A stretch of DNA of 6,554 nucleotides from Acholeplasmatales bacterium (GTDB lineage: Bacteria; Bacillota_I; Bacilli_A; Acholeplasmatales; Anaeroplasmataceae), in NCBI GenBank assembly GCA_017388605.1, contig JAFPIE010000125.1, positions 1 through 6,554 of the forward strand. The letters are read 5' to 3'. Shown one piece after another: positions 4,416 through 6,554 of this stretch. How positions within the stretch are numbered: the stretch's first letter is position 1; the number at the start of each line of letters is the position of its first letter. The notes below the pieces were generated by a model that was not told the origin of the DNA, did not search any database, and saw only the letters and a list, made by a program, of their open reading frames with translations. Made by a program: the position numbers and the translations under genes.

Positions 4416-5939
4416 ATGAATTATAGAATTGTAAGAAATCTAATTGGTAAAATGTTAATATTAGTGGCAGCATTAATGGTTGTACCATTAGTTACTGCCT
4501 TTATATACAAAGAAAGTATTCGAAATATTATATCTTATTTAATTCCTATGGTATCCTTAGCTTTAATTGGTGCTTTAATGGCATTTATAGGAAGGGCTAA
4601 GGACCAAAGAATGGGTGCAAGAGAGGGCTTTGTCATCGTTGCCCTATCCTGGCTTTTAATGTCCTTATTTGGATGCTTACCCTTTTTAATTTCAGGATAT
4701 GTTACAGACTTTTTTACTGCCTTCTTTGAAATGGCATCAGGCTTTACTACAACTGGTGCTAGTGCATTAACCGTAAATGAAATGGATCAAATGCTAAATT
4801 ATGGCGGAAGAAGCTTAATGATGTGGAGAAGCTTTTCTCACTGGATTGGTGGAATGGGAATTCTAGTATTCATTTTAGCCGTTATTCCAGAATCTAAGGA
4901 AGGCTCTAGTGTGCATATTTTACGTGCAGAATCCCCAGGACCCCAGGTTGGTAAGATTGTATCTAGGATGCGAGCATCTAGCCGTATTTTATATTTAATA
5001 TATATTTTCTTAACTTTACTTGAGGTTTGTATATTAAATCTATGTCATATTTGGGATCCCAATATGACATTCTATGATTCATTGATTATGTCCTTTGGTA
5101 CTGCAGGTACAGGAGGCTTTGCCCTAACCCCAGCATCAGCAGGATTATATGCAGCACCATCTCAATATGTCATTGCGACATTTATGATTATCTTTGGTGT
5201 CAATTTCACCATTTATTATTGGCTATTAATCAGAAATTTTAAGGATATATTCCAAAATGAGGAAATTAAATGCTATTTTCTAATGGTTACTTTAGCTGTA
5301 GTAGTTATTACCCTTCAAATCTATAAGCTTTATTCCAGCTTTGAAGAGGGCTTCCGTCATGCATACTTCCAGGTTGCATCCATAATATCTACAACAGGAT
5401 ATTCTACAACGGATTACTGGAGTGGTGCACAAGGCAGATGGCCTGCACTATCGTTAGGTATTATCGTTTTCCTAATGTTTTGTGGATCTTGTGCAGGTTC
5501 CACTGCGGGTGGAATGAAGCAATCTAGAATCATTATTCTATCCAAATATAGTGGTTCAAAGATAAAACAAATGATTTCCCCAAGAAAGGTAGAAGTCATA
5601 AGAATGGATGGTAAGCCAGTAGAAGAAAATGTTATACAATCCACTCTTGCCTTCTTTATTGTATATATTATAGTTTTATTTGTTTGTGCCTTATTGATTT
5701 CTATATGGAATCCAATGATGCCAAAGGAGGATCAAGAGCCATTAACCATGATTACAGCAAGCTTATCCTGTATATCCAATATAGGTCCAGGCCTTGGTGC
5801 CGTAGGTCCTGCAGGAGGCTTCTCTAATTTCTCATGGCTATCTAAATTAATATTAACCTTTGAAATGATTGCAGGTAGATTAGAGCTATTCCCTATTTTA
5901 ATTCTATTCACCCCAAGAACATGGAAAAGAAGAGTATAA
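4416..5939 (+). CDS. trkH: Trk-type potassium uptake membrane pore subunit TrkH
   Basis: TrkH is the K+-translocating integral membrane subunit of the Trk system and belongs to the SKT superfamily with four imperfect M1-P-M2 repeats. The 507 residues contain hydrophobic segments from residue 10 to the C-terminus and four selectivity-filter loops, each centred on one Gly: TTTGAS (111-116), GTAGTGGF (228-235), STTGYSTTD (325-333) and SNIGPG (454-459). Other family signatures are HWIGGMGILV (142-151), the GSCAGSTAGGMK region (357-368), whose glycine-rich bend corresponds to the intramembrane gating loop of repeat 3, and the typical C-terminus GRLELFPILILFTPRTW (487-503). Two extra N-terminal helices precede repeat 1, which favours TrkH over the shorter KtrB. 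It starts one base after the trkA stop with no convincing Shine-Dalgarno site, so its translation probably depends on ribosomes finishing trkA. All four filters are intact, so the protein should be functional. Confidence 0.96.
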   Translation: MNYRIVRNLIGKMLILVAALMVVPLVTAFIYKESIRNIISYLIPMVSLALIGALMAFIGRAKDQRMGAREGFVIVALSWLLMSLFGCLPFLISGYVTDFFTAFFEMASGFTTTGASALTVNEMDQMLNYGGRSLMMWRSFSHWIGGMGILVFILAVIPESKEGSSVHILRAESPGPQVGKIVSRMRASSRILYLIYIFLTLLEVCILNLCHIWDPNMTFYDSLIMSFGTAGTGGFALTPASAGLYAAPSQYVIATFMIIFGVNFTIYYWLLIRNFKDIFQNEEIKCYFLMVTLAVVVITLQIYKLYSSFEEGFRHAYFQVASIISTTGYSTTDYWSGAQGRWPALSLGIIVFLMFCGSCAGSTAGGMKQSRIIILSKYSGSKIKQMISPRKVEVIRMDGKPVEENVIQSTLAFFIVYIIVLFVCALLISIWNPMMPKEDQEPLTMITASLSCISNIGPGLGAVGPAGGFSNFSWLSKLILTFEMIAGRLELFPILILFTPRTWKRRV

Positions 5940-5963
5940 GCCCATACGTTGGTTTTTTTTCTT
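5938..5963 (+). terminator. probable terminator of the trkA-trkH operon
   Basis: Directly after the trkH stop, CCA (5942-5944) can pair with TGG (5950-5952), and AAG with TTT outside a bulged C. A run of eight T (5953-5960) follows. The T-run is convincing but the stem is weak, so termination here may be leaky or may need help. Confidence 0.4.
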
Positions 5964-6003
5964 ACCCATTATTTGTATATTTGGTTCAAAATAATGCATT
6001 AAT

Positions 6004-6029
6004 TTAGACACATTTAAAACAATGTCTAA
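6004..6029. repeat. inverted repeat TTAGACA...TGTCTAA
   Basis: TTAGACA (6004-6010) and TGTCTAA (6023-6029) are exact inverted copies. Allowing a two-base CA bulge extends the stem to nine pairs with a TAAAAC loop. No T-run follows on either strand, so it is not a standard terminator. An operator or an RNA hairpin in read-through transcripts is possible. Confidence 0.5.
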
Positions 6030-6068
6030 GTAATTCAAAAAATATTTTTAAAAACATTCTCGAAAAAT

Positions 6069-6100
6069 TTTGTTCGAAAATAACACATATATCGAACAAA
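6069..6100. repeat. inverted repeat TTTGTTCGA...TCGAACAAA
   Basis: A perfect 9-base inverted repeat, TTTGTTCGA (6069-6077) and TCGAACAAA (6092-6100), is separated by 14 bases. Arm centres are 23 bases apart, about two helical turns, which would suit a dimeric DNA-binding protein. It lies about 100 bases upstream of the riboswitch promoter. The regulator is unknown. Confidence 0.5.
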
Positions 6101-6135
6101 TAACAAGCAAATTGTTTGATTTTTTAATCTCGTTA

Positions 6136-6172
6136 TGAATAATCAAAGAACATTTTGTCGTTTTGTTATTCA
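6136..6172. repeat. inverted repeat TGAATAA...TTATTCA
   Basis: Seven-base arms at 6136-6142 and 6166-6172 are perfect inverted copies with a 23-base spacer. In such AT-rich DNA this could be chance; it is listed because it is the third such element in this short stretch and the closest to the promoter. Confidence 0.3.
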
Positions 6173-6202
6173 AAAACTAAAATTTTCGAAAAATAGGGTA
6201 TC

Positions 6203-6230
6203 TTGATTTTAAAAAGGAAAGTGCTATAAT
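6203..6230 (+). promoter_or_regulatory. strong extended -10 promoter driving the riboswitch gene
   Basis: TTGATT (6203-6208) and a perfect TATAAT (6225-6230) are separated by 16 bases, and TGC immediately before the -10 supplies the extended -10 TGn element. The predicted start is near 6237, leaving about 40 bases before the aptamer. This is the best sigma-A-type promoter in the window. Confidence 0.85.
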
Positions 6231-6235
6231 TTCAC

Positions 6236-6255
6236 GCGAAGAAAGCGTTTTTCGC
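6236..6255 (+). other. 5' leader hairpin at the transcript start
   Basis: GCGAA (6236-6240) pairs with TTCGC (6251-6255). Inside, after a bulged G, AAA pairs with TTT around a GCG loop. An alternative is AAGCG (6243-6247) with CGCTT (6253-6257) around TTTTT. The hairpin would sit at or very near the mRNA 5' end and could stabilise the transcript. It is not part of the aptamer. Confidence 0.5.
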
Positions 6256-6277
6256 TTATTATATTATTATAATAAAT

Positions 6278-6350
6278 AATCAAGGGCAAAACCTGAGAAA
6301 TCAGGCGACGCAAAGCTATAGGGTCTAAAAAAAGACAGCCAGTTGCGATT
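6278..6350 (+). ncRNA. cyclic-di-GMP-I (GEMM-I) riboswitch aptamer
   Basis: The aptamer senses the second messenger c-di-GMP in the 5' leader of the downstream gene. The conserved core is easy to see: GGGCAAAACC (6284-6293), a five-bp hairpin CCTGA/TCAGG with a GAAA tetraloop (6292-6305), the hallmark GACGCAAAGC (6307-6316), TATAGGGTCT (6317-6326) and AGACAGCC (6333-6340), then GTTGC (6342-6346), which closes P1 by pairing TTGC with GCAA (6286-6289). AATC (6278-6281) and GATT (6347-6350) can extend P1. The second hairpin (GTCT/AGAC) is very short, with only a six-A loop. Its 3' half is shared with the terminator that follows. Assignment rests on motif recognition; a covariance search would settle it. 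Confidence 0.9.
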
Positions 6351-6389
6351 TACTTAGGTTATAAGTAATTGTGGCTGGTTTTTATTTTT
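6337..6389 (+). terminator. riboswitch expression platform: intrinsic terminator overlapping the aptamer
   Basis: TTACTTA (6350-6356) pairs with TAAGTAA (6362-6368) around a GGTTA loop. After a bulged T the stem can continue down to bases 6337 and 6380 with several G-U wobbles, or in another register by AGCCA (6337-6341) with TGGCT (6372-6376). TTTTTATTTTT (6379-6389) follows. The 5' arm is the AGCCAGTTGC segment that the aptamer needs for P1 and its second hairpin, so the two folds exclude each other. Ligand-bound aptamer should therefore prevent termination, giving an ON switch; the direction is inferred from the overlap. Confidence 0.8.
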
Positions 6390-6394
6390 CAAAA

Positions 6395-6402
6395 AGGAGG
6401 TG
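6395..6402 (+). promoter_or_regulatory. Shine-Dalgarno site of the c-di-GMP-controlled gene
   Basis: AGGAGGTG, a near-perfect anti-16S match, ends seven bases before the ATG at 6410. It lies outside the terminator stem, so control is more likely transcriptional than by hiding this site. Confidence 0.9.
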
Positions 6403-6409
6403 CAGAAAT

Positions 6410-6554
6410 ATGAAGAAGAACTCAAAAATAAATTTAATATTGTCAAGTATTAGTTTGTCTATTACTGCACTACTTTTAGTAATGATTACCATGGCATGGT
6501 ATGCAACAAATAAGACAGCTTATGTTACTGCAGGTATTGGTAGTACAAAGGGGA
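6410..6554 (+). CDS. exported or anchored protein, N-terminal fragment, c-di-GMP controlled; possibly SipW-dependent type
   Basis: Only the first 48 codons are present; the gene runs off the window end. The start is set by the strong Shine-Dalgarno site. The visible part is a signal peptide or membrane anchor: a basic N-terminus (MKKNSK), a hydrophobic core of about 20 residues (8-28), then AWYATNKTAYVTAG (29-42). That last segment resembles the cleavage-site region of SipW-dependent matrix proteins such as TasA and camelysin, where an Ala/Trp-aromatic pair is followed by a polar stretch and a Gly-rich strand. If so, the product is a secreted biofilm fibre or surface protein, which fits control by c-di-GMP. 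A plain lipoprotein is unlikely because no Cys is present. A pilin or another exported protein remains possible. Export is fairly clear; the family is tentative. Confidence 0.75.
   Translation, partial: MKKNSKINLILSSISLSITALLLVMITMAWYATNKTAYVTAGIGSTKG

Follow-up and report, generated by a model that had tools for sequence, protein, structure and literature searches.

Bc3-5, a triple-tandem c-di-GMP-I riboswitch that precedes cspABCDE in Bacillus thuringiensis, forms a terminator when no ligand is present and is turned on by ligand, according to the reporter tests in the portion of the paper covered here (PMC4759541). The pilM cGAMP riboswitch of Geobacter metallireducens is also an ON switch, and the covered portion of its description states that binding is lost once the ligand-pairing C75 becomes paired in the terminator, which gives a binding window of 25 nt (PMC9262584). 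In the excerpts consulted on Clostridioides difficile, the class-I switches are reported to be OFF, and one of them, Cd1, has an aptamer and a terminator that can exist side by side, in competition with an antiterminator. Bc1, a class-I switch of B. thuringiensis, is described in the passages covered as binding c-di-GMP without responding in transcription tests, so that anatomy is no guarantee of function. Tandem class-I switches are already known. In the titles, abstracts and passages covered of the open-licence literature, which was the scope of our search, we found no description of c-di-GMP riboswitches in the bacterial group considered here.

We analysed a stretch of 6,554 nucleotides, referred to below as the window, and propose that it carries a class-I c-di-GMP riboswitch that turns on transcription of a gene for a surface protein. 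The host is Anaeroplasma-like, apparently related to a rumen bacterium that has no cell wall. We consider this reading of the switch probable. A covariance search of the whole window found one Rfam family, c-di-GMP-I (RF01051), which matched positions 6275-6350 of the forward strand with 60.9 bits (gathering cutoff 35, E 1.9e-10) and covered the model completely, from 1 to 87. The original prediction had placed a c-di-GMP-I riboswitch here, and the search bears it out. In Vc2 numbering, and with P1 assigned after Vc2 anatomy, the ligand-contact positions are G6285 (G20), A6312 (A47) and C6346 (C92), and the c-di-GMP-type residues are all present. The features of the locus are as follows.

6203-6230, forward strand: promoter-like sequence TTGATT-16-TATAAT (consensus scan, 10 of 12 matches)
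6236-6255 and 6256-6275, forward strand: predicted 5' leader with two hairpins (minimum-energy fold)
6275-6350, forward strand: c-di-GMP-I (GEMM-I) aptamer (RF01051 match, landmark residues)
6278-6281/6347-6350, forward strand: aptamer P1, with GATT as its 3' strand (after Vc2 anatomy)
6286-6287/6310-6311, forward strand: 2-bp helix of the aptamer
6292-6296/6301-6305, forward strand: aptamer P2, with a GAAA loop
6314-6325/6334-6344, forward strand: aptamer P3
6290-6309, forward strand: 5' half of a predicted third pairing, made of the P2 5' strand, the GAAA loop and the core GCGAC (folding)
6342-6360, forward strand: 3' half of the predicted third pairing, antiterminator-like, made of the P3 end, C92, the P1 3' strand, the upper arm of the terminator and some of its loop (folding)
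6337-6356/6362-6380, forward strand: stem of the predicted intrinsic terminator, with its loop at 6357-6361 and T-run at 6379-6389 (folds)
6394-6400, forward strand: Shine-Dalgarno sequence AAGGAGG, not in the terminator stem (sequence)
6410-6554, forward strand: start of the controlled gene, a putative membrane or secreted surface protein, 48 residues, cut by the window end

To judge from these residues, c-di-GMP would be the ligand of the RNA at 6275-6350. The window has the c-di-GMP form, G at position 20 and C at position 92, which argues against the possibility that the same switch answers another cyclic dinucleotide, for instance cGAMP. A at position 20 is the change used in the cGAMP-binding GEMM-I variant (G20A) in the covered part of its description, and it was present in 24 of the 161 aptamers that we sampled among the matches listed (that of the window, 81 and 79 further; some are tandem or come from related genomes, and they are not independent). 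In the covered passages on Cd1, replacement of the corresponding G11 by A had no large effect on binding, so that position 20 alone does not settle the choice of ligand. We think it very unlikely that the ligand of the window's switch is a different cyclic dinucleotide. Position 92 was U in 65 of the 161 aptamers, and the two variants occurred together in none. Four A20-type aptamers (G092:C39:2565, G098:C81:79734, G112:C2:119503 and G114:C13:11013) share a downstream stretch, CTTTCATCTT..TGTAATTGACT, that complements the aptamer 3' strand; these loci are without an overlapping T-run terminator and are perhaps under translational control.

The terminator hairpin of the window has a predicted energy of -19.5 kcal/mol and ends in the T-run TTTTTATTTTT. 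Its lower part consists of 14 pairs (5 of them G-U) between 6337-6350 and 6367-6380, and above these 6352-6356 pairs with 6362-6366. The 5' arm takes the P3 3' strand, C6346 and the P1 3' strand, and 6337-6350 is common to aptamer and terminator. The segment AGCCAGTTGC (6337-6346) had been described as the strand that closes the aptamer and also forms the 5' arm of the terminator. It does belong to the terminator 5' arm, but what it contains is a pair of bulged bases followed by the P3 3' strand and the region of C92; closure of the aptamer falls to the P1 GATT at 6347-6350, which also lies within that arm. When the T-run was kept fixed and 6351-6380 was dinucleotide-shuffled, an equally strong hairpin opening inside the aptamer was found in 0 of 1000 shuffles, and a weaker one, of -7 or better, in 234 of 1000.

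In the terminator C6346 pairs with G6371, and aptamer and terminator are mutually exclusive in the manner of the Bc3-5/pilM type. Nucleotides 6339-6350 are shared, so that the terminator is unable to coexist with the bound aptamer; this is not the Cd1-type OFF arrangement. Because the two structures exclude each other, ligand should produce read-through. In the proposed mechanism, RNA polymerase would make the aptamer first and complete it at 6350. If c-di-GMP were bound before the terminator 3' arm (6362-6380) emerges, the P3 3' strand, C92 and the P1 3' strand would be locked and transcription would continue into the gene; if it were not, 6337-6356 would pair with 6362-6380 and transcription would stop at 6379-6389. 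Comparison of full-length folds under three energy parameter sets and at two temperatures gave the terminator as the most stable structure, with an advantage of 10 to 16 kcal/mol over a secondary structure in which the aptamer was forced. Since these energies exclude tertiary contacts and the ligand, we infer that the switch is decided during RNA synthesis. Capture of C6346 by G6371 would limit ligand binding to a window of about 6348 to 6371 at most, which resembles the 25-nt window measured for pilM in the covered part of that study (PMC9262584). Both the direction and the kinetics given here are inferred.

ON is the best-supported reading, as had been predicted: 6337-6350 is used by both aptamer and terminator, Bc3-5 of Bacillus has this layout and is reported to be ON, and it is the commonest layout among the sampled aptamers of the order. 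The accompanying remark that several clostridial class-I examples are OFF fits C. difficile, whose class-I switches are reported as OFF, but ON switches of this class are nothing unusual and were already known in Bacillus.

Folding of the growing transcript predicted one more structure. An 18-bp pairing of 6290-6309 with 6342-6360 (6290-6302 with 6347-6360, and 6305-6309 with 6342-6346) breaks P2 and P1, and thereby destroys the aptamer, and it also blocks the terminator. Taken literally, the original prediction that a separate antiterminator would not fit here was therefore wrong. An antiterminator that coexists with the free aptamer, which had been named as grounds for giving up the ON reading, was not what we found, since the third pairing destroys the aptamer. 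It is predicted to beat the free aptamer from about 6357 and to be the dominant, minimum-energy fold in transcripts ending at about 6358-6374; in the full-length RNA the terminator is the more stable of the two by 6 to 10 kcal/mol under all parameter sets. On our own reading, the absence of a competing antiterminator may be a defining feature of the Bc3-5/pilM type, and here an 18-bp competitor is predicted. The third pairing would leave the ON logic unreversed, because the terminator arm remains held in the bound aptamer; its possible effects are a shorter time for binding and some leakiness of the switch.

The third pairing bears on the opposite logic, an OFF switch. In that case bound ligand would hold P2 shut, the antiterminator-like pairing could not form, and the terminator arm would be free to fold. 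A bound aptamer would indeed disrupt an antiterminator of this kind, and layouts that look OFF do occur in the order, where the complement of the aptamer 3' strand lies inside a separate terminator (9 bp in G018:C85 and 7 bp in G008:C3). However, the terminator of the window depends on nucleotides of P3, C92 and P1 that are tied up in the bound aptamer, and the part left free, 6352-6356/6362-6366, amounts to 5 pairs and ends 12 bases before the T-run. We regard OFF control at this locus as very unlikely.

The third pairing also raises the question of whether the switch is leaky or weakly regulated. Ligand-free transcripts would then sit mostly in the third pairing, which would serve as an antiterminator; read-through would occur with or without c-di-GMP, and regulation would be slight or would depend on polymerase speed. 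The energetics point this way in that the third pairing is the minimum-energy fold of transcripts ending at 6360-6374, and the predicted barrier is about 5 to 8 kcal/mol into it (depending on the start and end state) and 14 to 15 kcal/mol out of it to the terminator, although these barriers are upper bounds, computed along direct paths with nearest-neighbour energies that leave out tertiary contacts. The choice of parameters matters as well: the third pairing had a probability of 0.58-0.65, about even with the aptamer, under the Andronescu set and 0.98-1.00 under the other two. Its main duplex (-14.9 kcal/mol) was equalled in 0 of 20000 mononucleotide shuffles of 6347-6361, the best of which reached -14.2.

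The cost of keeping P2 was highest at two of the 103 loci with an overlapping terminator (4.0 and 4.8 kcal/mol; median 0.09), namely the window and its copy in G090, a relative described below. The third pairing was also the strongest of its sort in about 100 loci, where only these two reached -14.9 and the next (G043:C120) reached -11.3; having been picked as the best of so many, it may owe its strength to chance. The sole close copy, in G090, is identical in sequence at the third pairing and hence offers no covariation to compare. We rejected pairing between P2 and the terminator loop as an order-wide feature: across 100 overlap loci, the window and the G090 copy included, the true combinations did not outperform swapped ones (the median percentile was 0.50, and 9 of 100 loci lay at 5% or below). 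A class-I switch without ligand response is on record in Bc1, as far as the covered report goes. Weighing these points, we find a leaky or weakly regulated switch unlikely. A related and equally doubtful idea is a three-state class-I switch, in which the upper terminator arm and the loop imitate the P2 3' strand, and ligand-free RNA can escape to a further read-through structure that is incompatible with the aptamer and with the terminator. If so, the gene, encoding a TasA-like surface fibre, would respond to c-di-GMP and also to how fast the polymerase moves or whether it pauses between 6357 and 6380. The reading we prefer remains an ON switch governed by the aptamer and the terminator.

Transcription would start near 6236 if the promoter-like sequence upstream is used; the consensus scan found 5 such sites in 5900-6554, where 3.5 were expected. 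Translational control was considered and dropped because the Shine-Dalgarno site falls outside the terminator and its sequestration is not apparent.

The nearest copy of the locus is in genome G090, apparently Anaeroplasma bactoclasticum, and is 95% identical over 6270-6553. A G090 protein is 100% identical to P0001, a record named Anaeroplasma bactoclasticum, which is a mollicute in the NCBI taxonomy. At the place of the promoter-like sequence G090 has TTGACA and TATAAT, in a stretch otherwise identical at 16 of 33 positions. Leader, aptamer, terminator and gene match between the window and G090, and the DNA further upstream is unrelated, with TrkH in the window and an ATPase-like gene in G090. 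The window itself begins with an AAA ATPase of the DUF815 family (1-954), upstream of BipA and a TrkA/TrkH potassium transporter pair. The idea of a conserved gene order around the Trk genes was rejected: the G090 module lies on contig C20 and TrkH on C22, which ends 328 bases past TrkH, so that its downstream region is partly known. A cmscan of the stretch to the end of C22 found no aptamer beside TrkH and instead a group II intron D1-D4-3 domain right behind the gene (L187 5077-5244, 113.6 bits). A weaker group II intron match was found at L177 6712-6813 (32.2 bits, cutoff 32). A group II intron may be the reason why the neighbourhoods differ. No aptamer was found in G001, the relative with the first TrkH match, and cmscan of the TrkH loci L002-L009 returned two tRNAs only, with no aptamer.

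Across the order to which G001 and G090 belong, the aptamer was present in 91 of 160 genomes. GGDEF domains were found in 128 of the 160, with 20 matches in G090, and c-di-GMP can therefore probably be made. We counted a terminator as overlapping when it had -9 kcal/mol or better and opened at least 3 nt before position 92. Overlapping terminators followed 103 of the 161 sampled aptamers versus 42 of 800 controls with shuffled downstream DNA; 20 of the 161 had a separate terminator only (83 of 800 with shuffled downstream DNA) and 38 had none. In the 103, position 92 was paired in the terminator in 89, and at least two of the next four bases in 88. An earlier criterion (hairpin opening at -17 to -1, cutoff -6) had given 110 of 161 and was replaced, as it misfiled loci such as G102:C60; at a loose cutoff chance overlap is high (1680 of 6400 shuffles). 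Within the window's own gene family, a cluster of 21, 6 of the 19 members examined were without an overlapping terminator. There were 16 tandem c-di-GMP-I arrays within 250 nt, five of them triple, for example G034:C107:46853-47168, G038:C89:2819-3168, G039:C84:27164-27513, G026:C2:259425-259876 and G109:C58:11361-11598. Many have a terminator for each copy; in G109:C58 only the last copy has one.

The 48-residue fragment encoded at the window end shares 98% identity with the beginning of a 281-aa protein of G090. Further homologues at 64-77% identity (P0003-P0023) lie mostly on short contigs. The fragment had no Pfam match over the cutoff (DUF5480, E 0.019), and the 281-aa homologue matched neither Pfam at 0.01 nor NCBIfam at 0.05, so that no sequence match places it in the TasA family. 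A predicted model of the homologue resembles TasA weakly, and the gene product may be a fibre subunit. Among known systems, the SipW/TasA fibre system of Bacillus is one of the closest. Two signal-peptidase-like proteins are encoded near fibre-like genes in G090:C20 (L177 9487-10227 and 14501-15478), and the second has its own c-di-GMP-I aptamer with an overlapping terminator upstream.

Many of the aptamer-linked genes in the order appear to encode secreted or membrane proteins, judging by the look of their N-termini. The commonest target is a family of secreted-looking proteins, about 225-250 aa long in those seen, which accounts for 65 of 154 ORFs in 48 genomes, 59 of them with overlap by the earlier criterion (-17 to -1, -6); one scanned member (L144) had no Pfam or NCBIfam match. 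A target cluster of 11 contains a GGDEF protein (L096), which makes feedback possible.

If the switch is confirmed, c-di-GMP would turn on surface proteins, perhaps fibres, in bacteria such as Anaeroplasma, which has no cell wall. A single locus changes little, the design being known, and the setting matters more, namely an order rich in GGDEF domains, class-I aptamers and ON-type terminators. Because two folds compete naturally at this locus, it could also serve for studying the effect of a third state on a kinetic riboswitch.

The switch design is already known from Bacillus, and the locus adds a case from a little-studied host. Compared with Cd1 in the parts of its description covered, the window has a highly homologous aptamer domain, but the OFF layout of Cd1 is unlike the overlap seen here. 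The pilM switch shares with the window the mutual exclusion of aptamer and terminator and differs in its ligand, cGAMP, and in the phylum of its host, as far as the covered account goes (PMC9262584). Bc3-5 is like the window in that the ligand-pairing C is drawn into its terminator together with the P1 3' strand and some of the P3 3' strand; it differs in having three tandem copies and another host, and the parts of the paper covered describe no third pairing between P2 and the terminator arm (PMC4759541).
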